From a virus: 21,668 nucleotides of DNA. The DNA lies in IMG/VR virus record IMGVR_UViG_3300030333_007061, positions 1 to 21,668 of that record, one strand, 5' to 3'. The notes beneath the pieces are model-generated. The model was not told where the DNA came from. It made no database searches and was given only the letters and a program-made list of their open reading frames with translations. Both the position numbers and the translations under genes were made by a program. Below are positions 19-17,000 of this stretch, one piece after another (position 1 is the first letter of the stretch; every line of letters begins with the position of its first letter).

Positions 19-546
19 ATGAAAAATATATGTTACATCCTGCGCGGTTTACCGGGCACAGGTAAGTCGCGCCTCGCAAGGCTGATTAGCGCAGCCAATA
101 ATCCCGAATACTGTCTCGACAGGTTCTTTGTCCGAACCTTCTCTACTGATGACCTGTTCATCAATGAGGAAGGAGTCTACGAGTTCGATGCAGACCTGCT
201 CAAGTGGCACCACCAAGAGAACCTGCGGCGGGCTATTGAGTTCTTCAACCTGCACCCACGACCGCACCAGACTCTGGAGGGTGAGTACTGGGTACAGATT
301 GCCATCATTGACAATACAAACGTCCAGCACTGGGAGTATGAACCCTACATTACAGCCGCTGAAGAAGCAGGGTGGGATGTGCAGATCATTACCCTCGATT
401 GGAATGAGCATGACATCCCCCTCTATGCCAAGCGCAACAAGCATGGTGTGCCTGAAGAGGCGATCCGGCGCATGGCAGACAGGTGGGAGTATCCCGCTGG
501 TGTTATGAAATTTGGGTCTGACGAATGGCGGGACACCTCTAAATAA
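19..546 (+). CDS. P-loop kinase, N4BP2/polynucleotide-kinase-like
   Basis: The 175-aa product starts with a beta strand and a textbook Walker A motif, GLPGTGKS (residues 10-17). FSTDDLF (41-47) and IIDNTN (96-101) follow, then the spaced pattern W-Y-Y-AAEEAGW (105-119). This order matches the AAA_33 / N4BP2-like branch of P-loop kinases, whose members phosphorylate nucleic-acid ends or small molecules. The substrate here is unknown. The length suits a single kinase domain with no phosphatase or ligase partner, unlike T4 polynucleotide kinase. The first ATG was chosen. It lies directly after palindrome copy 1 and has no convincing ribosome-binding site, only a weak GAG. It could serve in repair of nucleic acid during infection, but that is inference. 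The kinase fold is firm and the substrate is not. Confidence 0.85.
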   Translation: MKNICYILRGLPGTGKSRLARLISAANNPEYCLDRFFVRTFSTDDLFINEEGVYEFDADLLKWHHQENLRRAIEFFNLHPRPHQTLEGEYWVQIAIIDNTNVQHWEYEPYITAAEEAGWDVQIITLDWNEHDIPLYAKRNKHGVPEEAIRRMADRWEYPAGVMKFGSDEWRDTSK

Positions 547-2452: not shown

Positions 2453-3358
2453 GTGCAAACAACAACACCACAAAGACAGGCCGTCCGCAAGACGGCAGAG
2501 CAGCAGAGGGAACAAAAGCAAGAGCCTAGTGGCCTCAGCATCGGAGCAACAATTAACATCTCCGCTTCATCCTTCGACAAAAGAAGGAAGAATAGAAAAG
2601 GGGAAAGGGAATATGCGGAGAAACATGGTACGGACATCGACGCAAACGAGATGACCACCAAGCTCATCCGCAAGGATTATCTCAAGCGGATCACCAGCCA
2701 TGTGGCTAAAACGAGGGAGGGTATCAAGCACTACACTTCCCCTTGGGATGATGGTGGGAATCGTCGGGTCGCCCCGCTTATGATCCCCAAGCTCCAGAAC
2801 TACGTTACCAAACGTAGGATGGAGTGGCAGGAGTTGGTAGATGAGTTTGTTGCCAAGTGGCCTGAGATCAGAAGCAATTCTGAACAGAGGCTCAATGGTG
2901 ACTTCGCCAAGTTTGCCCACCTCTATCCAGCAGTGGACGACCTCGATGGAGTTCGCCGGAACTTCAATCTTAACATTACCTTTGGCCCGTTGGGTGGAGC
3001 AGAGGATCTCCCGCTTGACTTGCGAGAGACATGGGAAGAGGAGGACCAACGCCGTCGTGCAGAGATCTCTCAGGATCTTCGTGACAGGTTCTACGACAAG
3101 CTCACTCATCTTTCCAAGCGGTGCGCCGTGGCGGGTGATGAAGGCACACGGTTTGCCAAGTCGAACTTGGGCCATGTTCTGGAGCTTTGCGACATCCTCC
3201 CGTCGATGATGATCGACAGTGACATGGAGCTGCAAGGGGCCATCGAGCGGGCCAAGCATATGCTGCAAGGCGTAGACTCTGATAGCATCAAGTCATCCAA
3301 GATTGTGGCTACTGACATCAGTCAGCAAGCCAAGGAGATTGCTAACTCTCTCATGTAA
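2453..3358 (+). CDS. Hypothetical partner protein of the AAA+/VWA operon (301 aa)
   Basis: The first gene after the strong promoter. It begins with GTG; no ATG occurs in frame until about residue 67, and the GTG is preceded by the A-rich leader AAAAGTAGAAAG rather than a Shine-Dalgarno site. The N-terminal ~55 residues are Gln/Lys/Arg-rich and probably disordered. A more structured region follows, with SPWDDGGNRRVAP (96-108) and then long charged helices to the C-terminus. No catalytic motif is evident. Proteins of about this size recur next to MoxR/CobS-like ATPases and VWA proteins in phages; from memory the DUF3150 family is one candidate, but this needs a profile search. It is probably an adaptor, substrate or structural partner of the ATPase encoded next. 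Confidence 0.8.
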   Translation: MQTTTPQRQAVRKTAEQQREQKQEPSGLSIGATINISASSFDKRRKNRKGEREYAEKHGTDIDANEMTTKLIRKDYLKRITSHVAKTREGIKHYTSPWDDGGNRRVAPLMIPKLQNYVTKRRMEWQELVDEFVAKWPEIRSNSEQRLNGDFAKFAHLYPAVDDLDGVRRNFNLNITFGPLGGAEDLPLDLRETWEEEDQRRRAEISQDLRDRFYDKLTHLSKRCAVAGDEGTRFAKSNLGHVLELCDILPSMMIDSDMELQGAIERAKHMLQGVDSDSIKSSKIVATDISQQAKEIANSLM

Positions 3359-3419
3359 CAAACAGTCGGGGGCCGCGCATCCGTTGATCACGCGGAACAA
3401 AAAGTAGAAACAAAACAAT

Positions 3420-4499
3420 ATGACACACGTTGAAATAACAACAGAAGACATCCCATCCGTATTGGACCGTGACCTCAAGACAGGCAACAAAAAGCCTCCT
3501 GTCTTTCTGGCGTGGTATGGATTGGGTAAATCAATGCAAGCCGCGTTGTGGGCCACTAAGATGATGGCCCACTACATCGACTATCGTGGGGCCTATAAAA
3601 CGTTTAACGACGTTCGTGGGTTCGGGATACCTAACCATGAGGAAGAGCGTATGAAGTTCTACCATGACGAAGACCTCGACTTCAAAGAGGGCGTAATGAA
3701 TGTCCTCCATCTGGAGGAGATTGGTCTTCTCAGTCCTCAGACCCAGAAGGTTATGATGCAGATGCTTCTGGAGAAACGGGTAGGTAAGTTCTTCTTCCCT
3801 GAAGATACCTTCGTCATGGGGTCATCCAACATGCTCGCCCACAAGACGGGGGTTGAGCCTTGGCTGGCCGCGTTGGCTGACAGGGTGGGGTTCTACCGCA
3901 TTCGTCCTGACTTTGATTCATATCAGAGATACCTCATGGATCATGGTAAGACTCCTTATCTCTTGGCGTTCCTGAACTCCAATCCTTCTGCTCCATATGA
4001 TTTCAAGATCAAGGAATGGGACAGAGAGTCCAACCTGCCTACCTTCCGGTCGTTCTCTCGACTGGATGAACTGACTGACAGTTACGATGACATTGCAGAA
4101 GCCGTGGCAGATCCTCTGTTCCGTGCCCATGCTACAGCTCGTGTCGGTCCTAAGTATGGACAAATGTACACGGAGTTCATCAAGCTCACCAGCAGAGTAG
4201 GTGATGTGGAGTCAATGATCGAGGATGCTGATCGTTGCAGTATCCCGCATGAGGTGGACATCAAATGGCTTATTGCCTGCCGGTCCATTGCCTTAGCGGA
4301 CAAAAATAATGTCGATAAGGTTCTTACTCTGGCGCACCGCCTGACAGATCCCAACATGAACAACCCCAGCAACCTCGACATGTTGGAATCCTTCGTTGGT
4401 AATTCCATCAGCCGGATCAAGAAAGACTTGCTTAAGACTCAGGCCCTCGTAGGGTGGCGAGTCAAGCATGCCGACGAACTCTCAGGAAAGGTCAACTAA
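3420..4499 (+). CDS. MoxR/CobS-like AAA+ ATPase
   Basis: The 359-aa product has the layout of a compact MoxR-family AAA+ ATPase. A Walker A-like loop WYGLGKS (32-38) is reduced from the usual GxxGxGK. A Walker B-like strand follows, VLHLEEIG (95-102), with Glu-Glu where Asp-Glu is normal. The sensor-1 Asn is in VMGSSN (132-137), and LADRVGFYRI (152-161) is the region that often carries the arginine finger. A helical C-terminal domain follows. MoxR ATPases work as hexamers that remodel or load partner proteins, typically with a VWA protein encoded beside them, as is the case here (gene at 4727). Related pairs are RavA-ViaA and CobS-CobT; marine phages often carry genes named cobS for such ATPases without proof of a cobalamin role. 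It starts 61 bases after the 301-aa gene with leader AAAAAGTAGAAACAAAACAAT. Confidence 0.82.
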   Translation: MTHVEITTEDIPSVLDRDLKTGNKKPPVFLAWYGLGKSMQAALWATKMMAHYIDYRGAYKTFNDVRGFGIPNHEEERMKFYHDEDLDFKEGVMNVLHLEEIGLLSPQTQKVMMQMLLEKRVGKFFFPEDTFVMGSSNMLAHKTGVEPWLAALADRVGFYRIRPDFDSYQRYLMDHGKTPYLLAFLNSNPSAPYDFKIKEWDRESNLPTFRSFSRLDELTDSYDDIAEAVADPLFRAHATARVGPKYGQMYTEFIKLTSRVGDVESMIEDADRCSIPHEVDIKWLIACRSIALADKNNVDKVLTLAHRLTDPNMNNPSNLDMLESFVGNSISRIKKDLLKTQALVGWRVKHADELSGKVN

Positions 4500-4815
4500 A
4501 CTGATCCACTGCATCCTGAACCACGAATCCTGCCCCACGATTATGTGGCCAGCTACCGATCCAGTTGTAACCGGATTCTACTTCTGGCTACGTGATATGG
4601 GTAGTAACCACATAGTCGGGGCGGATAGTGGACACATTAGAGTATCTAGGGAAGCGGACGAATTGCTCCGCGACCATAGAGTTACAGTCAAACGTTTGAC
4701 TGAAATACACAGAAAAGAAAAGAAACATGACAGTAGAAGAAAAACTCGCGAAAGCGAAGAACATCATCGCGAACCATCACGAAATCTTCATACCGGCTAT
4801 CGCCGCTTTGGATGA
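4468..4815 (+). CDS. Possible small ORF between the ATPase and VWA genes
   Basis: An open frame fills the 227-base gap between the ATPase stop and the VWA start, and overlaps both genes. From the first ATG it would give 115 aa; from the ATG at 4543, 90 aa. The gap portion reads like real protein (for example VVTGFYFWLRD and IRVSREADELLRD), while the tail overlapping the VWA gene is basic and low in complexity, as expected for an out-of-frame shadow. Palindrome copy 4 falls inside it, unlike the other copies, which are strictly intergenic. The stretch may therefore be a small gene or simply a leader region. No homology is recognised. Confidence 0.35.
   Translation: MPTNSQERSTKLIHCILNHESCPTIMWPATDPVVTGFYFWLRDMGSNHIVGADSGHIRVSREADELLRDHRVTVKRLTEIHRKEKKHDSRRKTRESEEHHREPSRNLHTGYRRFG
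4685..4702. promoter_or_regulatory. Palindromic site, copy 4 (18-bp perfect dyad)
   Basis: CAGTCAAACGTTTGACTG is a perfect 18-bp palindrome ending 24 bases before the ATG at 4727. Compared with copy 3 it differs by one C/G for T/A pair on each side of the core, so the symmetry is maintained by paired changes. The spacing to the start codon (24) is almost the same as for copy 3 (23). The right arm contains TTGACT, a -35-like hexamer, but no -10 box follows at the right distance. Confidence 0.72.
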
Positions 4816-6058
4816 AGAGATCGTTTACGATGACCCATCCCTGACCGCCTGCACGGACGGGGAGAAAATCAAATACGGTGCCCAATATGTTGGGACACTG
4901 AATGTCCAGCAAACCGTTGGATTGATTGTGCATGAGATACTGCACCCCTTGCTCGACCACATCACAAGATTGGTATCGCAGTTCGAAAGTGACCCCCGAC
5001 TCGCAAACATCGGGGCGGACTACGAGATCAATAACTACGTGACAATATACAATAAGGAAGCCGCCTTCCCTATTGTGTTGCCACCTGATGCTTATGTCGA
5101 TGTCGAGAAGTATGGCACACTGGCAGCGGAGGTTATCATCAGGAAGCTCTATGAGGATACCCCGCCGCCTCCCCCGCCTCCCCCGCCGCCGACTGACCCC
5201 GACGGCGATTGTGACAACCCCACTGATGGGGAAGGTGACAAGGAAGGCAAGGGCGACAAGGAAGGCAAGGACGACAAGGAAGGCAAGGGCGACAAGGAAG
5301 GCAAGGAAGGCAAGGAAGGCAAGGGCAACGGATCTGGCGGGGGCCAGCCCAGCCGACAGCCTTACTCTTCTGGTGAGTTCAAGCCCGCCAAGAATCCTAC
5401 CAAGGCTAGGGAACTAGCCAACAAGTGGAGGGAGATCCTGTCCAGCACCATCCAGATTGCGAAACTTCGCGGTAAGGGTGGCGGTAAGTTCATCGAGAAA
5501 CTTGAGGAACTATTGGAGCCTCCCCTTGATCTGGAGTCTCTGTTGGATAAATACACCAGTGAGTTCTGTATGTCGGACGAATCCATCCGCGCAGACAAGC
5601 GTCACCTAGCTTATCACGATATCTGCATCACAGGTATGGAGGATGAGCAACATGGGACATTGGTATTCGTCAAGGACACCAGTGGTAGTATCAACAGTGA
5701 TATCCTTAACTCCGTCGTGAGCATTGTGCAGGGGGCTTCTAGCAAGCTCCGTCCCCGCCGCATCATTGTGATGGATGTGGATGCAGAGGTGCAGCACGTT
5801 GAAGAGTTCGGGCCCAACGATGATATCCCCGCTGAAGCCAAGGGCAGAGGAGGCACAGACTTCCGACCTGCGTTTGATTTCATCGAGAACAATCTTGAGG
5901 AAGCACGAGTCATTATCTACTTCACTGATGGATATGGCGTGTTCCCCGACGAAGAACCAAGTATCCCGACCTTGTGGGTAACATATGGTCTGGAAGATGA
6001 TGGCTTCCCATTTGGTCAGGTAGTCAACATGAATGAACTGATGGACCAAGCAGTATAA
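4727..6058 (+). CDS. VWA-domain protein with N-terminal metallopeptidase-like domain
   Basis: The 443-aa product has two domains joined by a low-complexity linker. Near the N-terminus VGLIVHEILHPLLDH holds a zincin motif HExxH (69-73) plus a third His at 78, matching the putative metallopeptidase domain of the DUF2201 family. The linker has ten prolines (146-155) and GDKEGK-type repeats (170-200). The C-terminal part (~300-443) is a VWA-like domain with the metal-site residues DTSGS (317-321), Thr in GGTDF (377) and Asp in FTDG (401), so a MIDAS looks intact. VWA proteins of this kind act with MoxR ATPases, encoded just upstream. Peptidase activity is not proven for this family. The A-rich leader GAAAAGAAAAGAAAC precedes the ATG, and palindrome copy 4 lies upstream. 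Confidence 0.85.
   Translation: MTVEEKLAKAKNIIANHHEIFIPAIAALDEEIVYDDPSLTACTDGEKIKYGAQYVGTLNVQQTVGLIVHEILHPLLDHITRLVSQFESDPRLANIGADYEINNYVTIYNKEAAFPIVLPPDAYVDVEKYGTLAAEVIIRKLYEDTPPPPPPPPPPTDPDGDCDNPTDGEGDKEGKGDKEGKDDKEGKGDKEGKEGKEGKGNGSGGGQPSRQPYSSGEFKPAKNPTKARELANKWREILSSTIQIAKLRGKGGGKFIEKLEELLEPPLDLESLLDKYTSEFCMSDESIRADKRHLAYHDICITGMEDEQHGTLVFVKDTSGSINSDILNSVVSIVQGASSKLRPRRIIVMDVDAEVQHVEEFGPNDDIPAEAKGRGGTDFRPAFDFIENNLEEARVIIYFTDGYGVFPDEEPSIPTLWVTYGLEDDGFPFGQVVNMNELMDQAV
5237..5323 (+). repeat. In-frame tandem repeat encoding (G/D)DKEGK units
   Basis: Three full 18-bp units of the type GACAAGGAAGGCAAGGGC are followed by a 15-bp unit and two 9-bp units (GAAGGCAAG). All stay in frame within the VWA gene and encode a charged flexible linker. 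Different strains may differ in copy number through slippage. A polyproline stretch of C-rich codons precedes it at about 5161-5190. Confidence 0.85.
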
Positions 6059-6076
6059 AATAGAAAGGAAAACAAA

Positions 6077-7177
6077 ATGAAGATAGAAACATTCTTCCAA
6101 AAACTAACGGACGATCCATACGGTAGGTATGCCTGTTGTGCATTCCGCAGTATTGATGGTGTAATATTCGTGAGGCAGGAGGCGGGGCTAGCTGTCCGGG
6201 TTGAAGGCGACCCAGCCGACTTCCCTATCAAAGTGAGACTCGATGCAGACGGCCTCTACTATGCCCAAGAGCCCTTCTGGGCCTTGGGGGCGATTGTAGA
6301 AGAAGATGTGCTTATGACACATTACATATTCGACAATCATCGGACAGAACGTATGGGATATGTCCATCAGAGGGCCCGTCAGGGCTGGGGAGGTGACATG
6401 TGCTCGACCCGCCACCGCATCAAGGTTCGGGGAGGTTCGGGGGATACCCCCATACTAAAACCACACACTCGAAAGCTGAGAAACCGGTATGGCAAGATCA
6501 GGGATGTTCTAGTCTCTGCTTTGCAGCTTGGGCCTAGAAATCGAAACCATAAGGATGCAGACAAACTTATGCCTGTAGAGGAATGGTGGGATTGGGCGTG
6601 GGCTTGGGCTATAACTGATTGCGCCAAACGTGTGACAGATTCCAACAGCAAAATCGCATCCTTGCTCACATCTGCGTCGTTTGACAACCTCACCAACATC
6701 GAGGACAAGTTGCAGGCAGTTCGCGAGAAGGTAGCAGATTCGGACTTCGAGGCGGCCAAGGAGTTATTCACCCCTCTGAACGCACAGATCGACAAACTGA
6801 GTGACCTCACTCGTAGGGCCAGTAACCAGATTAGTTCGGCCCAAGAGGGATTGGACGTTAGTGCATTGCCCGATCAGTTCTACCGTCTACACGAGGACGC
6901 TTCCCAAAAAGAGAGGTACCTGTTTACAGATAAGTGGTACTGCCCTATGGAAGTCCACACAAAGGGGGGCCAGAGTTTGCTGGAAGCATTCGACAGTTTG
7001 TCTGAACTGTTCTACAAGATCGGTCTTTTGATACAGGCCCCTTACGGGGTGCAGGTATGTCCAGAGAATATCTCTCAGCTAGCGGTCTTGAACGAGTCTG
7101 TCAAAGAAGTCATACTGAGCTTACCAGATAATGGTGGCGAGGTTGAGACAAACGAACCAAAGCAACTACTGGCGTAA
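6077..7177 (+). CDS. Hypothetical protein of the AAA+/VWA operon (366 aa)
   Basis: I do not recognise this protein. The first ~130 residues look like a mixed alpha/beta domain with many aromatic and acidic residues. A Trp-rich segment EEWWDWAWAWA lies near 168-178, followed by long helices with heptad-like spacing (about 195-270) that suggest a coiled coil. There are no catalytic signatures, signal peptide or membrane helices. It starts 18 bases after the VWA gene and has one of the better ribosome-binding sites in the block, AAGGA seven bases before the ATG. Tight linkage suggests a role with the ATPase and VWA protein, for instance as adaptor or target, but this rests on position only. Confidence 0.75.
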   Translation: MKIETFFQKLTDDPYGRYACCAFRSIDGVIFVRQEAGLAVRVEGDPADFPIKVRLDADGLYYAQEPFWALGAIVEEDVLMTHYIFDNHRTERMGYVHQRARQGWGGDMCSTRHRIKVRGGSGDTPILKPHTRKLRNRYGKIRDVLVSALQLGPRNRNHKDADKLMPVEEWWDWAWAWAITDCAKRVTDSNSKIASLLTSASFDNLTNIEDKLQAVREKVADSDFEAAKELFTPLNAQIDKLSDLTRRASNQISSAQEGLDVSALPDQFYRLHEDASQKERYLFTDKWYCPMEVHTKGGQSLLEAFDSLSELFYKIGLLIQAPYGVQVCPENISQLAVLNESVKEVILSLPDNGGEVETNEPKQLLA

Positions 7178-7178
7178 C

Positions 7179-7430
7179 ATGAAGACTACTGCTGAAATAC
7201 AAATAGGAGATACTATTGTAGAAATCAAAAGCCGCCGTGAGGATAATGCTTCAGGCTGGTCAATCATAGTGTTCACGCCAACTGGGAGCTTGAGATGTGT
7301 GCGCCCACACATCTCGACAGTCCTTAACAGGTTCGTGGATGCTATTGTAGCATCAGTGGATAAGAGGTTTCTGGACCATGAATCAGTGGTGCAGGATACC
7401 AAAGACACTGTGTTGTCCATCATTGATTAA
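7179..7430 (+). CDS. Small hypothetical protein (83 aa)
   Basis: The ATG at 7179 lies one base after the stop of the 366-aa gene (TAA-C-ATG), which favours it over an ATG at 7131 that would overlap the upstream gene by 47 bases. The protein starts MKTTAEIQIGDTIVEIKSRR and appears beta-rich in its first half, with a helical second half (VLNRFVDAIVASVDKRF). No family is recognised. It is probably translated by coupling to the upstream gene. The next start codons (GTG 7431, ATG 7434) follow its stop at once. Confidence 0.65.
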   Translation: MKTTAEIQIGDTIVEIKSRREDNASGWSIIVFTPTGSLRCVRPHISTVLNRFVDAIVASVDKRFLDHESVVQDTKDTVLSIID

Positions 7431-7433
7431 GTG

Positions 7434-7688
7434 ATGAGGCACTACGTTCAAATAGTGAGCCCGCTGGGGCTCCCCATGCTAGTTGACGGTATGTTCGTTG
7501 AAAGTGAACTTATCGAGTGTCGGGCCCACGCCATCGTAGGGGGTGTGGTTCGAAACCAAATCAAGCTGGAAGAAGGGGAGCCCCTGTTTGAGGCGATGGT
7601 TTCTCTATTACAAACTGTCCACGACAAGAGTAGTGGGTTAGACCAAGGGCACAGCCCTGATCTGCATGACTATTACGGACAAAACTGA
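7434..7688 (+). CDS. Small hypothetical protein (84 aa)
   Basis: It starts either at GTG 7431, directly after the previous stop, or at ATG 7434; the ATG is preferred because it is the stronger codon and costs only one residue. The first half has the beta-like pattern HYVQIVSPLGLPMLVDGMFVE, and the C-terminus is acidic and His-containing. No domain is recognised. Its last 23 bases overlap the helix-turn-helix gene at 7666, so the two are probably translationally linked. Confidence 0.6.
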   Translation: MRHYVQIVSPLGLPMLVDGMFVESELIECRAHAIVGGVVRNQIKLEEGEPLFEAMVSLLQTVHDKSSGLDQGHSPDLHDYYGQN

Positions 7689-8022
7689 GGCGCTCCGCAA
7701 AGTCCTAATGCGCTACAGCCGCAGGAAGTGGAGCTGGATATGCGATTATGGCCCCCAAACAAAATGGTGTAAGTTGGGGCTTCTGATCGCTAAACGCGAA
7801 TTAGGAATGACATGGCGGGAAGCTGGGGCCTGTTTCGGTTTAAAACCGGGGCAGGCTTCCAGCGTCGCTCGTAAGTTTGAAGATAAGGTTTTTGAGGAAC
7901 CCGCTCTTTTCGATATGATGACTAATCTATCGTTTCGAGTACTTGAATCCTTGGACCAGACTTGCGGATCTCATCAAGGGCGATCTTCAGGCGCTGGCGG
8001 CCCACTGCCCCGTCGGGGGTGA
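7666..8022 (+). CDS. Helix-turn-helix protein, possible regulator (118 aa)
   Basis: Residues ~47-71 (from GMTWREAGACFGLKPGQ to the RKF at 69-71) have the spacing of a helix-turn-helix: a first helix starting with Thr-Trp-Arg-Glu-Ala, a Gly-Leu-Lys-Pro turn, and a recognition-like helix QASSVARKF. The N-terminus is basic with Trp and Cys residues. The final ~30 residues look unlike a folded protein and are encoded opposite the 3' end of the giant gene, overlapping it by 101 bases. As the only likely DNA-binding regulator in the window, it is a candidate for binding the palindromes upstream, but there is no direct evidence. An alternative is a small sigma- or resolvase-like factor. Confidence 0.6.
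   Translation: MTITDKTEALRKVLMRYSRRKWSWICDYGPQTKWCKLGLLIAKRELGMTWREAGACFGLKPGQASSVARKFEDKVFEEPALFDMMTNLSFRVLESLDQTCGSHQGRSSGAGGPLPRRG
7828..7856 (+). other. RNA hairpin inside the helix-turn-helix gene
   Basis: GCCTG (7828-7832) pairs with CAGGC (7852-7856), three U-G wobbles continue the stem, and CGGT pairs with ACCG around a five-base loop. The stem forms well only in + strand RNA, because on the other strand the wobbles become A-C mismatches. No T-run follows, so it is not a standard terminator. It lies ~95 bases before the 3' end of the opposing giant gene, and may be incidental to the coding sequence. Confidence 0.35.
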
Positions 8023-11000
8023 GTCGTATTACCTCTTCTATGAAGGGAGTTGGTAGCACATCTCTTTCTCTGCGCCCCCTGACAATATAGGATTGGCGTC
8101 TCTTGCCCATGCCCAGAGTTTTGTCTGACATTATATTACGAGCCTCTCGACGACTAAGGCCGAGTCCCTGCGCCCCTACATACGCTGAGTAGATTCGTTG
8201 GTCCACATCTCGCCTCGTTTGCATCCAGTCCCGAATAGACCGGCGTATTTGATTTTCAGTTAGCTGAGACGTTGATTTCAGAATGTTCCTCGACGAGGAA
8301 GCACGGTTGCGCTCATCGCGGGCCCTCTGCAAATAGCGCATGAAATGTGACTTGGGGTCATACTTGTAAGGTTTTACAGGGTTGATCTCCCCAATCAATA
8401 ACGCCTTCGCTGATTTAGAAGGGTCAGGTGACTCGCCGCCATACAACGCAGACCATGCCGCTTTAGTGAGATTAGTGGGGGTTCTGGGGGCATAGGCCTC
8501 TGAATACACATAACCTAGTTTTTTAAGCAGCCCCTCGACGCCCTCCCCCTTCTCCGCGATTGGTCCTTTAGTGTCAGCCCGCACATTTCTCGAAACGTCT
8601 ATAAGAGAACTCAAAAATATATTCTCATCAAAGAAGGTCTGCTTCAGACTGCCAAAGGCCTCTTCGAAGCCTCTCTCTGGGTCCCCTCTGTATACATGTT
8701 CTCCAAAGCGTAACAGTGGGTCTACGCCAATGGCGAAAGGATTAACAAAGGTTAAGTCCGCTGAATGTAGAAGTCCTCCTTTCTTATAGTAAAAGTAGGT
8801 GTTAAACCTTTTATATTCTGGAGCGGACCCTCGCAAAAGTTCATCCTCCTCTTCCCCTACGCCCATCAGATGTGCTAGGGCGGTCGGTAAACCAATGCTA
8901 ACGCCCCCGATTACAGTCGAGAAGCCTAAGAGGCGTCTTGTTCCCCTAGCTCTAATGACTTCGTTAGGGCTCTTCCTCTCTTCTTTTATGAGCTTGAAAG
9001 TATTCCCCGTGATTCGGAAGATATCAGTCTTGAACCGAAGGAAGGGTGTAACCACAGAAGCGTAACTGCTCTTACTTATTTTTTCAACCAAGTGGTAGGC
9101 GTCGGGATAGGACTGGGATGTGCGGCGTACTTTCTGAGCCGCCATATACTTGATGTCGTAATCAGAAAGATTGCGGTAACCTGCGGGGGCGTTCGCGTCT
9201 ATGGAATCGGTGTCATTATCTATGTCCCATTGCTTCGCCTTCAGAAGGTTGGCTTTTTCTAGCTCAAAGTAGCCAATCTTGTAAAACGCATCGACTGACT
9301 GTGACAAAGCCTGCGCCCTTTCTAGGATAGCTTCGGCCTTTTTGGCGGCGAAACGGCCTCCTAGTTTTTCCATTTTTTCGGCCAATTTATTCAAACCCTC
9401 TATCTCTCTGATTACAGAGGTAACAGTTTTAGGCTTTTTGAGAAGGTCTTTAATCAGGGAGGAATACAAATCTGTGCCAATAACATTCAAACTTGTTAAT
9501 TCAGCATAGTACTCATCGAAAGCTTTGGGGTCTGTAAGGGACCTCGCAATATGTTTGGTCTGCTTAAGTATTTTAAATATAGACACGGGACCAAACCCTT
9601 GGGCGGGAGCGAAGAATAACAAGTTTCCAAGAACATTCCTCATATAGAAAGTTAAGGACCCTAGGGTTTTAGCGGTCAGAGCCGCCCCCGTTAATAAACG
9701 GAAGCCTTCTCCTCCTAGAGCAAGAGCTTTCTTAGACTTAGACAGATTTGACTCTGCTATGTCTGGAGAAAACATTCTCTTCATATCCTTAAACATATCC
9801 TCATGGACGTAATAGTTATACGTCTGATCGTATGTGGACTCTAGTTCTGTCGTGGCTTGGACTTTGTCCCCATAAACAAAGGCCTCGCCCGTCCTCATGT
9901 TGACATAAGATTCTGGGTCTAACTGTGGGCGGTTGGACAATTGTTCATGGGTGAACACAAAGGCGGCATCGTCGCTATCACTTTGAGGTGAGCCAAGTTC
10001 AGCTATATTATTATAATAAGCCTGCCTAGCAGTCATCTCAGACACAATGCTATAGGTGCGGAAGATATTGTTGATGCCTTCCTCGGGGCCATAAACCCCT
10101 AAAAGTTTTTGCAACTCAGGGGGGACTTGTTTTCTCCGTTTCAAATTATTAAGTAGAGACCGGCCAAGACCTTTGGGTAATCTGTATTCCTCCCCCTTAT
10201 ACTGCTTCTCCTTGGCCTTCAAATAAGTGGCCATCATAGAATGAATGGGGTCCCTGCCAATATTGGCTTCCTGCTCTAACACTTGTTCAGCTTTTCTCAG
10301 AGCGGCCTCCCTAGTCAGGGGAAGCCCGTCGAGTTGGGACTTCTTCAGAATGTGCTTGGTTTGTGTTCTAAGCCACTGTCTCCTCATATATCCATAGGCA
10401 TCCGTGTAAGCTTCTGTGGTCCTGTCAGATAAAATTCTTTCTCTGAAGCCTTCCTCCTCAAATACTCTATACTGGCGGGTCAGGTAAATCCCCAGTTGGC
10501 TATCGACTTTGGCCATGACTTTACCCTCAAGCCCGAAGGTCTTCTTCATAACCAGACTAAACGCATCTACCAGTAGGCGTATCTGTAATATAGAGTCAGC
10601 AAGTTCGGGAGATACTTGCTTTATATTCTCTCTCGCGAGGTCAATTTTTTTCCGCATCTCCTCTTGAAGTCGGACATGCTCTTTTCTCATCGGCTCGACG
10701 ACTAGCTCTCTATACTTAGCCTTAATCTTTTCTCGTGTGAACTCACTAGCGTCAACGTCGCCCGCATCTACCTTGGCTCTTAGGTCTTTGCGCCATTCCC
10801 AATATGACTCTCGAAGGGCGGCTCTAAAGTCGGCGTCTACTTTTACAGATTCAACACTACCTGTTGCTTGAGATATTTGTTCATCTGTTATCTGCGGAAA
10901 CTTCTCACGTATCTTGAGGAAGTCGTTTAATTGTTTGTTGCCTAGTTTTTCAGTAGCGTTGAGAAATGCGCGCTCTTTCTTTTTTAACTCCGTGATTCTG

Positions 11001-14000
11001 GGGTCTGTATCCCCATGCTTCAGGGCCTTTAACCCTTCGTAACCTCTATACTTCCCTTTAGAAAAGACCCCCATAGGCAGCTCTAAGCTGTCGAACATAC
11101 CTTGGAATCGCGCAATAATATCTTCAGGGGTGGTATTCTCATCAATATCATTGAGGGACGCATCGAACCGACGGGTAAGGACTTCGAAGCCCGCGTCTGG
11201 GTTGCGGGGGTCAAACGGCATATGGTGGGCACGAGCAGACCCCCCGTTGGCTAAAAATCTAAGTTCGTAAGCCATTCGGTTAACCATAACCGCCAGCTCT
11301 GGGTTATCTTTTTTAAGGTTGTATCTCGCGGCCATCCTACGGAAAACCCCCGAAATGTATCGGAGAATTACGCGGAAGGTGCTGGGACTGGACTCATAAA
11401 ATGCGATGTCTTCTTGGGTAGTGAACCCGCGTGTAACTTTTTTCAGACGGGAGAGGAGCATTTCGCCCACCATCTGTCTTTTTATTTCAATGTCATTGTC
11501 AGCCACGCCTTGTTTTAGCCGTGCCCGTAATTCGGGGTTACGGGTGTAGGCGTCTATGAACTCATTGAACTCAACTTCATGGAGCGTTTCAATAAACTCA
11601 TCCAACTCTTTGAGAGGTATGGCTTTGAATTCAGCTATATGCCCTAACTCTTCTGCAATAATGGAATCTACAATACCTTTAAGGTGCAGCTCGTTCTCGA
11701 CTATTGCACTCTTAGCAAACAAAGCTCTCACTAGATTCTCCCGAACCACAAAAATGACAGGAACTCTCTCCCCGTCTTTCTCAACTACCACAGAAGCGAA
11801 GGCTTCGTCGGGGCGACCCGAAAAAATATCTGGGGCATCAGCGGCAGTATCTACCATCGAGACCGCGACTGACGGAGGTATACTCCCCAAAGCTTCTTCA
11901 ATCAAAGCTTGGAGTTCAGCCTCCTGTGCGGGAGTAAGTTCTTCATCTGATTCGAGGCCAGTTTCGGAAACGAACGGGCTAAACCGAGCACCAGCGGGGG
12001 AAGCCCGCATAAAGTCGGGTTTCAATACATTCCGGTAACGGGCCCGGGCCCTATCAATCCTATTATCCATGTCGCCGAAGGGCGTGGTCTGCCCTTCAGC
12101 GTTCCCAAGATTGACAAAGTCTATCAAATTATCGAAAGCATCGCGGAATGTGGCATCTGCTCTGACCCCAAACAAATCCAAAATAGCGTCGGCTATGCGG
12201 CGGAACAGGCTACGTTGTTTATCTTTAGGCTGTGTGCTTTTAAGTGTTCTCTGAAAAGTGGCTGACGAGAAGAACGTCGCCACAAACTCGTCGAGACTCC
12301 CCATAGCATGGTCAAACTCCAGATTTTCTGAGGCTTCGTTTCGGGACTGAGAGGAGATCTTGAACAAACCTTCTAGTCTCTTCTTAGCTCCGAGTTGTTT
12401 GGCAGTAAGCTCAGATTCTGGCTTGGCTAGGAGATCTACAGTGAAGGCATGTATATATTCGTGGAGAAGGACGGACTCTACCCCTTGACCATAAAACCCC
12501 GACAGGTTTATGCTGACCATCTGGGAACCATCTTCAAAGGTGGTGTGGTTCCCCGCAGACCCATCTGGCACATCATATATAGAGAACTTGACGCGAGAAA
12601 GAAGCTCTGGGTTTCGGAGCAAAAGTTCGGCTACCAACCGATGTTGCCTGTTACGACTGGACTTCGCGATCTTCTGCAAAGCGTCGATTACTGAAGAAGG
12701 GTCACCAGATTTTAAACCCAATCTTCTTACCGCACTTTGGTTTTTGCGGCGGTAGTACTTGAACTTCTTCCCAAGAAAAATTGAGGGGGCATGGTTTACA
12801 CCCAGCTTCGCGAGAACTTCTCTAGCGATGTCGTTAGTAAGTTCTGGCGGGAGGGGGCTGAACATAGGAACATACGATTTAAATATGTTTATGGCATTCC
12901 AGTTTTGCAAGACCTCTTCGGAGGCCACAGCCTGATTTAGGCGCGCTACAAAATCTGATGTTCCGTGGTTAACCCTAGCGACATTAAGGAGATGCTCAAA
13001 AACACGAGCGGGTTGGGTTTGTTCAAGAACATGGGGAGGGGCGGAATCGCCTTCAACGGCTACGACGACGCGCTTCAGCGCATCAGTAAAAAGGTTTTGT
13101 TCCCTAATAGTGTTGGGTCCGCTTGCTCTTAAGTAGTTCCTTACGTCTACCCGCACAGCCTCCACCGCATTCTCCATGTCAGCGGCATCGAGCATTGTGG
13201 CCTCCCGCCAAAGAGTCTGAACTTGTTCTCCAGTAAGTTTATCAACCCCAAACTCCTGAAACTGAGGGATTGGGAGATCCTCTTTGTCCAGATCCTGTTC
13301 AGCAGCTAGGTCTTGCTGATCAGCCTCAAATTCAGTTACAGTTTGTGAGGCTTCAAAAGAAATATTGGTGACATCTGGGAACATGAGTGCCCGCCGACTA
13401 ATAAGCCTCTGACGAGCCCTATTACCTGCATCGCGAATTATAGCGTAAAGATCAACTGTATCGCCCTTAAAGTATTTTATATTGTCTCGTGCTTCTTTAG
13501 CAAAATATTGACGAATAGTTATTTCTGCCCAGTTATCAGCAAGAGTTCTAGAAGTAGGGGTGGTTGTAATTATAGGCCTGTCTTTACTATCAGGAAACCC
13601 ATATTTCAGTAAGAAGGCCGCTTTGTTTTCGAGGCTGTTCGCGTCCCCTACTGGCACGGGTTTAGCAAACTTAGGAGGGGTATACGCCACTATCTCTTCG
13701 AGATACATATGCCCAGCTAAGGTTTCCGTTTCTATTTCAGGGTCTAGCTCAAGGACATCAAATAACTTCTCCCCTTTTGCAACTGTCCTCGTTCTAAGCG
13801 AGCGGGAACCATAACGGGGGGCTATTATCGCTTTATGGAGGATTGTGTAAACTTCAGCTAAAGCCATAGCTCTAGCTGTTGTATACTCCTCAGAGGTGAC
13901 TCCCGCCCCGTCGCGGTAGGCCCTTACATTTAGTATCCGGCTTATCATGGAGCCAAGAGGGCTGGTCGTACTGCCAGTAACTATGCCCGTATACTCTTTC

Positions 14001-17000
14001 GCAAACAAAGCGTTCAGGGGGGCGACGGGACCTCCCCCCTCTTTTATGTCTCGCTCTGCATCGAAAACTACCAATTGTTCTCCAACAGGTTCTCCTTTTT
14101 TATTTGTCGGACCCAATTGAGCATTAAGATAACTTGGGGCAGCGTCTAACTCAAAAGCCGCGTTTATCTTTAGGTGGCCCAACAAATATTTTGAAAGGTC
14201 AGACTGGAGGGTGTCTTTGTAAACTATAGACCTTTTAGTAAATTCAAACCCCGCTACGGGGGCCTCGACATCTACAGCAAAAAATCTTTTTGTGTTCGTA
14301 AGGTCATCGAACTTTTCAACAACAGCGATAGCTGGGTTGCCTATATACTCCCCATCTTTTATGTAAATATCAGGGACCCTTACCAGAACTTTCTCTTTTC
14401 TGAGTAATGAAGCGACACTCGTAGGGTGGTTATTAAACACTCCAAAAGCTGTGTCGTGATGCCACTTAATGTACCTTTTATCGTTTTTAGACTCCCCAGA
14501 TAAATTTTTAGCCTGACTCTCAGTTAAGCCAACTGTTTTAGCAGCTTCAACTGCTTTAGCAATCGTGGGTACAGGGTAGCGTCTTTTAATACGGTTGTTA
14601 ATCGTTAGGGTAAGGGCCTCTCTTGTCCACTTTCTAGTCTTCGGGCCAGCGTCGCCAAGTAATGTGGCGGTTTTGAATGTAGCGTCGGGGAACCCATGGG
14701 GGGTCTTTTTCGTTATATCCACTGGGATGCCCGACCGGACATGCAAGTGTATAAGTTCGCGTATCCTGTCGCGCAAAACTCTGTCTGAGAATGAGTCAGG
14801 GCTTTCGGCGTCTTCTTCGGTGATTTCCGCGTCAATGCTATCGGGGTCGTTATCAGCGGTGTCTTCGGGGGTGTTGAACTCTTCGCGATATATTCTTTGG
14901 GACTCTTTAAATATATCGTTTAGATGGGGCTCTAGCTCTTCTCTCGTGTAATCATTTTTAAATTCTGACAATAGCTGTTTCGTCCACGCGTCGAAGTTAG
15001 CTATTTTTCTGGCTATATATGCTGCTCCAATAACAGCTAAATCCGAAAGAATCGTTGGATCGAGGCCTAGATTAAAACGAGAGCCTTTTTCGCGCAGGTT
15101 TCTTCTGGCTTGTTCAGCCTTCTTTTCCATTCTTTGGGCGAAAGCTTCTGCCCTAGATATTTCTGAAGTCTCGTCTGTTTCTACATCAACGTCGGCCTCC
15201 TCACGGGCTTGGGCAATGTCTTCAGCAACAGCCTTCAAGGCTTCCACGGCGTCTTCAGAATCCAAACCTGCTGCATTTGCGTTGTCAGAAAACTCGTTCA
15301 GGTCATCCTCTGTTATTACAAGCTCTTCTTCTGCTTCAGCGGCGGCTACTCCCTCCTCTTGCAGCTCCTGCTCTTGTTTTACTTTAGGGGACAGTTCAAA
15401 AGTAAGGGCCTGAACAACGCCCTCATGGGCTTCGGTAACCCACTCGCTAAACGGCTTATCAGTGACGTTTTTTATTTTCGTGGCTTTGCCACCAAATATT
15501 AAACCGACAGGGTCTCCTTGGGGCCCTACTGTTTTGGATTTTTTAACGGTAACCCCTAAGGCCTTTAATTTTTTGTTAAGAGCCACTAAAGTAAGCTCCC
15601 CTTTAGGGGGGTTTTTGAGGAGCTTATCCTTTTGCTTTTGCAAAGCCTCTACAATCAAGCTGTGTTCTGCTTCTGAGACCTCTGTCCTAGAAGATGAAGC
15701 AGCGAAGGGGGTAGTGGCATATTTTACTTTATTCTCTAAAAGACGTTGATACAGGTCGGCTGGGAGTTCTGATTTAAGAGCCGCTAGTTGGTTGGTGTTC
15801 AGAGAGGGCATAGACCCCTCTGCCCCTGCTACTTCAGGTGGGGCTTCAGGTGCGGGGGCTTTTGGTTCTCGCGCCATCCTCCTCCCTCTCTTTGTCACAA
15901 ATCCAAATCGTTCGTAGAACTGTTTAAGTTTTTCTTTGGATGGCCCCCCCACGAACTCTTCCACATCAAGAGTAATTCGCGTGCCAGTCGCGTCTGCGAT
16001 TTCAGCAAGGCGGGTCATGATTGCGCTGCCCACTCCTTGTTGCCGCAAACCGCGAGCCACCTTGATCATATCAAGATATACAGTTTTCCCGCTAGTCGCT
16101 CTAATGTCTATCGATTCAGACCCCGATGCTGATGAAGAGCGCTGGCGTTCTCTCCCCGTGAGCAGTAAGTTCTCGGGCAATTGTTTAGTCTCTGCCTCAT
16201 AGATTTCCATGAAACCCTCCGACCCTGACTTCTGGGTTTTGGGAGTGGGGGCTTCAGGTGGGTCTTCGGTTGGAGTTTCAGGTGGGGCTTCATCGTCGCC
16301 CCTAGGAGTAGTGGGCCTTAGGAACCTTGCTGCGAACCTTCTGAAGTCATCCTCTATCTCAAGTGGATTTCGAACCCTAACCTGAGGGGCGGGTGTCGTC
16401 GGGTCACTTTCAGGGGGAGCAGGGGGTGTAACTACTGTCTCTGCGGCTGCCTCCTGATGTTCTTCGGGCGTGGCTTCTGCGGCTGCTTCCGCTACTTGTC
16501 TCGCTATGTCTTTTTTAATTAAATCCCAAGCTGCGTTGATCTCCTGCATTACTGTCGTCGCATCAGGGGAAGGATTGACATCAGGGTGATATAAGCGGAC
16601 TAAATTACGGAAAGCGGCTTGTATTTCAGCATAAGTAGCCCCCACAGGGACTCCTAGAGTAGCGTAAGCAGCAGTAAGTGGGTCCACCGCCTCTTCTGTG
16701 GGGGTGCCCCCAACACCTTCAGGTGGAGCTTCGGTTGGGGTTTCGGTTGGGGTTTCGGTCGGGGTTTCGGTCGGGGTTTCGGTCGGGGTTTCGGTCGGTT
16801 CTTCAGATGGTTCCTCGTCCGTATCACGCTTAGAGACTCTGTCGGGGTCGATACTCGCCCGTTGTCTCGCGTCCATGATGTCCTCAATAGCATCTGCTGT
16901 CGCAGGACTGTCTAGATCTCTTAATTTCTGGCCAGCTTCTTTGGCGCGTTGTTTGTTTATATCCTCCGCTATTCGTGTGGCTAGCGCCCTTTTAGCCGCC

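Follow-up and report, generated by a model that had tools for sequence, protein, structure and literature searches.

The stretch of DNA analysed here (the window, 21,668 nucleotides) is positions 1 to 21,668 of the 27,836-base virus record IMGVR_UViG_3300030333_007061, and it carries a five-gene cassette that is found in one phage lineage. The cassette encodes, in this order, a DUF3150-like protein (A301; D in gene orders), a MoxR-type ATPase (A), a small protein (S115; S), a VWA protein with an HExxH motif (VWA443; V) and a lineage-specific protein (B366; B). The best explanation overall, which we consider slightly favoured by the evidence, is that D-A-S-V-B encodes a phage AAA+ remodelling machine, and we are a little more confident of a remodelling machine that has D and B as its dedicated partners. 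An earlier note on this DNA had named four open reading frames (ORFs); all four are there, on the plus strand and with 301, 359, 443 and 366 amino acids (aa). Between the ATPase and VWA genes lies a further, small ORF, also conserved, which the note overlooked. The four-gene order is repeated in three sister contigs, of which one pair is near-identical. The phage origin of the window holds because its record contains a terminase-like ORF, whose homologue in a sister contig matches phrog_2 (terminase large subunit), and because further ORFs of that sister contig match helicase, exonuclease and endolysin families.

The 301-aa protein, which the earlier note could not assign, can be assigned. In Synechococcus phage MinM2 a gene annotated as DUF3150 lies between the ATPase and VWA genes, and when the 301-aa family was compared by hhalign with 34 neighbour proteins (from four other-phage loci and G7C) the MinM2 DUF3150 protein reached 90.8% (E = 1.2e-6) and the runner-up 1.7%. 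A hidden Markov model (HMM) of nine DUF3150-like proteins, with the window and sister sequences left out, matched the 301-aa protein at E = 9.3e-26 among 1052 ORFs (best unrelated ORF, E = 0.24), and profile-profile hhalign of the 301-aa family against DUF3150 proteins gave 99.1% over 252 columns. The AlphaFold2 model of A301 (predicted local distance difference test score (pLDDT) 91.2, predicted template modelling score 0.82, 56 sequences) had eight viral matches in BFVD with E<=0.001 (best 1.6e-13), among them A0A6J7WV52, a 'DUF3150 domain-containing protein' (E 1.2e-12, TM 0.74/0.76). By profile homology and predicted shared fold, the 301-aa protein thus belongs to a DUF3150-like superfamily. 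The Pfam family PF11348 (DUF3150) itself had no match in the window's record and matched 2 of 17 records, one of them over the cut-off; the window protein lies beyond its reach, so that library scans overlook it, and we therefore call it DUF3150-like and not a PF11348 member. Accordingly, searches of PHROGs and Pfam and tblastn against phage records gave nothing useful for it. The model had no match in the PDB with E<=0.001. An NCBIfam HxHSH lipoprotein match (19.4 bits against a cut-off of 225) was judged to be chance, and VIA fold matches covered only the helical part, residues 181-301, with a best Z of 9.3, which is at chance level for helical bundles.

The ATPase and the VWA protein, which the earlier note had recognized as a MoxR-type ATPase and a VWA protein with HExxH, are backed by family matches. 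The ATPase matches phrog_1297 (5e-35), and a profile of eight ATPase sequences searched against PDB sequences found Midasin nearest (2e-14), with a CbbQ/NirQ/NorQ protein at 6.2e-8; by sequence it is a MoxR/NorQ/Midasin-type AAA+ protein. In the viral set described below, the Walker A Lys is kept in 72/73 sequences, and the sensor-1 Asn and the putative Arg finger in 73/73 each. The VWA protein matches phrog_1314 (2.6e-62) and is over the Pfam cut-off for DUF2201_N (5.9e-27) and DUF2201 (8.1e-20; PF13203 and PF09967). VWA443 can thus be described as a DUF2201 protein with a putative peptidase HExxH domain and a VWA domain whose metal ion-dependent adhesion site (MIDAS; D317, S319, S321, T377 and D401) is intact. 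The five MIDAS positions are intact in 80/80 viral VWA proteins, and the HExxH residues are conserved in 76 (H), 75 (E) and 78 (H) of the 80, two of the misses being gaps. Both phrog_1314 and many phage records label this VWA/DUF2201 protein 'HNH endonuclease', which looks like a misannotation; in phage G7C a gene for an HNH homing endonuclease (gp24.1) lies between the ATPase and VWA genes, and its position may be the source of the label. A role in cobalamin metabolism, as the names CobS/CobT would have it, was also considered, and the literature search found nothing on it.

The three assigned genes travel together. We scanned IMG/VR with the VWA protein as anchor and took the best 80 of 585 loci, to which all viral counts out of 80 refer; some loci are near-duplicates (e.g. 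L035/L036 and L059-L061) and were counted separately. The ATPase gene was present in 73/80 loci, and in six of the other seven the contig starts within ~270 bases of the VWA frame. All three genes, A, D and V, were present in 57/80 loci: 31 of these run A-D-V, 20 run D-A-V (in one of them a gene lies on the opposite strand) and 6 run A-V-D. The remaining 23 had no detectable DUF3150-like gene, and in 11 of these little contig lies upstream of VWA. A bacterial scan, anchored on a Burkholderiales-based DUF3150 pattern and hence yielding mostly close relatives, returned 68 loci, largely from Burkholderiales, of which 53 have A-D-V, 12 have D alone, 2 have D with V and 1 has A with D. In addition, tblastn with the MinM2 DUF3150 protein led to 42 plasmid records; in 7 of the 8 regions opened, ATPase, DUF3150-type and VWA-like genes lie close together (directly adjacent in six), and in the Simplicispira region the nearest gene for an ATP-binding protein is 3.6 kb upstream. 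The eighth region, from Manganitrophus, instead has a DUF3150-type gene beside an AAA ATPase, DUF1257 and DUF2997. On plasmid pCAR1, genes for AAA, DUF3150 and NorD-like VWA proteins stand in a row; the available text of PMC2642839 describes the pCAR1 region ORF100-103 as conserved in R478, Rts1, SXT and R391, and from the gene order we infer that ORF102 of that 2009 paper is the DUF3150 gene. The ATPase/DUF3150-like/VWA trio is a widespread trio of phages and plasmids, a mobile-element module.

The loci L172, L178, L180, L182 and L033 belong to another DUF3150 branch, in which AAA (PF00004) ATPases lie nearby, at some loci with DUF1257 or DUF2997 genes, and VWA is absent. The first four of these are D-only loci that were run against Pfam, and each has a PF00004 ATPase of another type; DUF1257 matches fell just under the cut-off in two of the three neighbours tested from D-only loci. 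DUF3150 may be a general AAA+ partner.

The two remaining genes mark the lineage. With an iterated profile, B366 was found directly downstream of VWA in 15/80 viral loci and in the window, and the weakest member (1.8e-97) is clearly set off from the next ORF (3). The order D-A-V-B holds in 12/12 of these loci that contain the whole region, the other three being cut by contig ends. S115 is conserved in 14 of the 15 and in the window, the fifteenth locus being cut inside VWA; it was found in none of the other loci (among 21,954 ORFs), and its iterated profile separates members (1e-26 or better) from the next ORF (0.16). In scans anchored on B366 itself (14 loci, of which two, L185 and L189, lie on contigs not already met), VWA was present in 14/14, the ATPase in 13/14 and the DUF3150-like gene in 11/14, and the misses lie on contigs that end there. 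B366 thus marks one phage lineage, and D-A-S-V-B is a five-gene cassette in it (Table 1).

Table 1. Features of the cassette in the window
Feature	Position	Strand	Details and basis
A301 (D), DUF3150-like, third component of the trio	2453..3358	+	301 aa, GTG start; HMM, hhalign, AlphaFold2, BFVD
MoxR/NorQ/Midasin-type AAA+ ATPase (A)	3420..4499	+	359 aa; phrog_1297; PDB relatives Midasin, CbbQ/NorQ
Walker A of the ATPase, AWYGLGKS (A replaces first G)	3510..3533	+	motif
S115 (S), small ORF overlapping the ATPase and VWA genes in another frame	4468..4815	+	conservation
VWA443 (V), DUF2201 protein, HExxH domain and VWA	4727..6058	+	443 aa; Pfam over cut-off; phrog_1314
HExxH motif HEILH	4931..4945	+	residues 69-73 of VWA443
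MIDAS DTSGS	5675..5689	+	VWA443 motif
B366 (B), lineage-specific candidate partner, predicted folded core with coiled-coil hairpin	6077..7177	+	366 aa; 15/80 viral loci; AlphaFold2
B366 conserved LL[AG] C-terminus on predicted disordered linker	7166..7174	+	family alignment, AlphaFold2 model

B366 itself resisted assignment. PHROGs, Pfam and tblastn against phage records gave nothing useful; a single-protein scan found no relatives and a close-relative scan only the sisters. Its AlphaFold2 model (pLDDT 83.2) had no match in BFVD with E<=0.001, and VIA fold matches covered only the coiled-coil hairpin at residues 181-261 (best Z 10.7). For both A301 and B366, a family missing from the fold-search results is not thereby ruled out. 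A relationship to DUF3150 was rejected (0.2% probability in profile comparison), no kinship was detectable to the genes downstream of VWA in MinM2, CRP-7, phiFa or RHph_TM3_14A, and a profile of 16 B366 proteins had no match in 23 records, in a search run without a positive control.

What B366 does have is a conserved end. The last 15 residues of the model have pLDDT <50, and among 11 non-redundant members the second-last residue is Leu in 11/11, the third-last Leu in 10/11 and the last Ala or Gly in 10/11, while no position of the linker (-5 to -30) exceeds 55% identity. DUF3150 proteins of the Burkholderiales loci L115-L164 likewise show a conserved L.LVA, L.IAA or LQLLAA end after a variable linker; the pattern [LIFM][VALT]A fits 41/42 distinct Burkholderiales DUF3150 tails, as against 84 of the 3640 ORFs of 150 aa or more, a set that counts family members as well. 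The VWA protein of pCAR1 has LAA as its last residues. LAA and LVA are ends of the ssrA type, and the B366 and Burkholderiales DUF3150 ends (LL[AG]; LVA/IAA) could be degradation signals for host proteases and not docking peptides, with which conservation limited to the last residues of the tail would agree. We consider this rather unlikely, as LLG and LLV ends occur too and the proteins that bear the tail are partners of a MoxR ATPase; a relative of this ATPase, NorQ, is known to bind an LVA end (PMC13036017, in the part available). The same part of that paper describes contacts of the PdNorD C-terminus (L636/V637/A638) with the post-sensor-1 loop of NorQ, and co-purification was abolished when PdNorD lacked its last two residues. 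By analogy with the LVA end of NorD, the B366 tail might be a ring-docking peptide; we offer this tentatively, as possible but short of probable. The pattern at least turns 'adaptor' into a prediction that can be tested by one truncation. Broader still would be a modular MoxR-VWA machine of mobile elements, in which a docking peptide has moved between partners (VWA in NorD and perhaps pCAR1, DUF3150 in Burkholderiales, B366 here) and which dismantles or reloads the element's recombination or replication complexes. This is a long shot; if true, phages and conjugative elements would share an ATP-driven recombination-remodelling device not yet described.

How might the cassette work? As in NorQD, the ATPase would form a ring, and the VWA protein would plug this ring with its MIDAS gripping a partner. 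An adaptor role of the flanking proteins is plausible: D and B could bring or hold the protein to be remodelled, and the flexible LL[AG] peptide at the C-terminus of B366 could hold this protein to the ring in the manner of the NorD end.

The genes around the trio bear on the target. We compared 148 of 157 neighbours from 51 trio loci with PHROGs, leaving out nine pieces of long reverse-strand ORFs and 6 of the 57 trio loci as near-duplicates. The 25 commonest of 104 neighbour families include exonucleases (phrog_69 with 9 members, phrog_298 and phrog_1218 with 4 each), DNA helicases, RecT-/Bet-like annealing proteins, primases and endonuclease VII. By description, no head or tail family is among these 25, nine of which carry no description. 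On pCAR1, genes for SSB, RecT and a lambda-type exonuclease lie ~10-16 kb downstream of the trio. Annotated phages mostly show a similar context: a DNA polymerase gene lies close by in RHph_TM3_14A and CRP-7, while MinM2 has a primase, phiFa a gene for recombination repair, G7C RNA polymerase and nucleotide genes and Slicko01 a deoxyribonuclease; the context in GAP31 is uninformative. The likeliest target would be a complex of proteins that recombine or replicate DNA during infection, and not the capsid, although this choice of target is itself doubtful. The neighbourhood speaks against virion assembly as the general role of the pair, without disproving it, and moves the probable function away from capsid assembly and toward recombination and replication.

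Virion assembly, with the pair and its partners assembling or processing structural proteins such as the 3830-aa protein encoded convergently beside the cassette, we hold to be unlikely also because plasmids bear the trio yet make no virions. It has been proposed for the jumbo-phage MoxR/vWA-metallopeptidase pair, an archaeal virus serving as the precedent for tail assembly (PMC7824862, available text), and a long reverse-strand ORF lies downstream of the cassette in other loci too.

Several observations weigh against a D-A-S-V-B machine or against parts of it. The Walker A motif of the window's ATPase keeps GxGKS with A for the first G, and its Walker B has E for D; both departures also occur in relatives, and because of these atypical residues ATPase activity is not certain. 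Its post-sensor-1 residues, read by eye, are unlike the I/L pair of NorQ. The LL[AG] tail occurs in a single lineage, so that the B366 members are not independent witnesses for it; it is absent from the DUF3150-like protein of the window and, in most phages that lack B366, from A, D and V as well. The ATPase gene of S-TIM5 has genes annotated as virion structural nearby, as virion assembly would have it, and the neighbour tally covers 25 of 104 families and has no control set. Finally, the pair occurs without a detectable DUF3150-like gene in 12/80 viral loci with ample flank (a search of the whole record in 11 of these 12 gave no match, while two positive records matched) and in the records of G7C, phiFa, RHph_TM3_14A and CRP-7, and 12/68 DUF3150-anchored bacterial loci lack both this ATPase and VWA. 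Viral loci with the pair but no DUF3150-like gene would be expected if the pair alone were the functional unit and DUF3150-like, S and B were neighbours of convenience kept by low recombination. We consider this improbable, since the trio recurs across phages and bacterial plasmids and genomes in three gene orders, that is, the linkage outlives rearrangement, and B366 was never found without VWA. The proposal of the earlier note that the flanking proteins belong with the ATPase/VWA pair therefore stands for most loci, with VWA beside every B366 and the pair beside 53/68 DUF3150-like genes, and fails for the exceptions just given; in neither the B366- nor the DUF3150-anchored loci did the flanking genes occur mostly without the pair, the pattern which that note had named as counting against it.

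The earlier note had also suggested a host complex as the possible target. This found no support: the neighbours point to DNA recombination or replication, without saying whose. Could the machine nevertheless disarm a host complex, in takeover or counter-defence, with B366 as its target-specific adaptor? B366 is the most diverged cassette protein among the sisters, with 57-59% identity against 84-97%, and the module lies within non-structural gene regions. A separate comparison of the window with the three sister contigs gave about 57% for B366, 87-97% for the 301-aa protein, ~86% for the ATPase and 80-82% for VWA. For B366 between window and sisters, synonymous divergence (dS) is 1.5-2.4, and 0.24-0.94 for D, A and V. 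Its ratio of nonsynonymous to synonymous divergence (dN/dS) is 0.13-0.24, which leaves positive selection on B366 unsupported; in some pairs dS is likewise high for the small genes to the right of B366 and for the 3830-aa ORF. The pattern, with h85 and h99 included, fits mosaic exchange under purifying selection. As PADLOC 2.0.0 found 0 defence families for the four window proteins of the earlier note at E<=0.01 and no host target was seen, we regard host takeover, too, as unlikely. Within the window, synonymous divergence from the sisters is higher for B366, h99 and h85 (6077-7688, plus strand) than for D, A, V and h118.

Parts of this picture are already known, namely the ATPase/VWA-metallopeptidase pair in phages and the trio, which can be read from the pCAR1 annotation. 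Group 2.2 jumbo phages have a MoxR ATPase and a vWA protein with an N-terminal metallopeptidase domain, and the available text of PMC7824862 names no third component, whereas here the DUF3150-like protein, S and B366 are fixed parts. N4-like phages have an ATPase and vWFA pair, gp24/gp25 (PMC2784036, as far as available); homologues were found in N4-like G7C, which differs in that no DUF3150-like gene was detected. The pCAR1 region shares the AAA (MoxR-like)-DUF3150-VWA row on a mobile element (PMC2642839, same portion), but its order is A-D-V, its VWA protein is NorD-like and longer (604 aa), and no homologue of S or B is named there, none having been sought. NorQD and related MoxR-VWA complexes (PMC13036017 and PMC9976466, in the parts available) share the types of ATPase and VWA partner and the short hydrophobic C-terminus; here, in contrast, the conserved tail is on B366 (on DUF3150 in Burkholderiales) and not on VWA, and V has the HExxH domain. 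The VMAP-MoxR-vWA ternary conflict systems, as set out in the accessible text of PMC7159879, resemble the cassette in the order third protein-MoxR-vWA and in the notion of a pair that remodels a complex with the third protein. They differ in that the third protein here is DUF3150-like and in that Pfam showed no fused effector domain on VWA; no VMAP family was among the Pfam matches at E<=1, in a Pfam copy not checked for VMAP models. In the literature searched, mostly outside subscription journals, we found no report that assigns the 301-aa protein as DUF3150-like, shows how widespread the trio is in phages, or describes the five-gene cassette or the tail pattern, and no mention of DUF3150. 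The pair has a scattered distribution among N4-like, jumbo and many uncultivated phages; the trio in phages and plasmids, and the five-gene cassette in one lineage, now provide a defined set of proteins to co-express.

Two further ORFs of the window lie outside the cassette. A 175-aa P-loop protein (19-546, plus strand) is AAA_33/polynucleotide-kinase-like (Pfam 2.4e-08, phrog_505 2.8e-07). The 3830-aa ORF (7922-19414, minus strand) has a DnaJ domain (1.4e-12) and acetyltransferase-like matches, and its product is probably a large virion protein.

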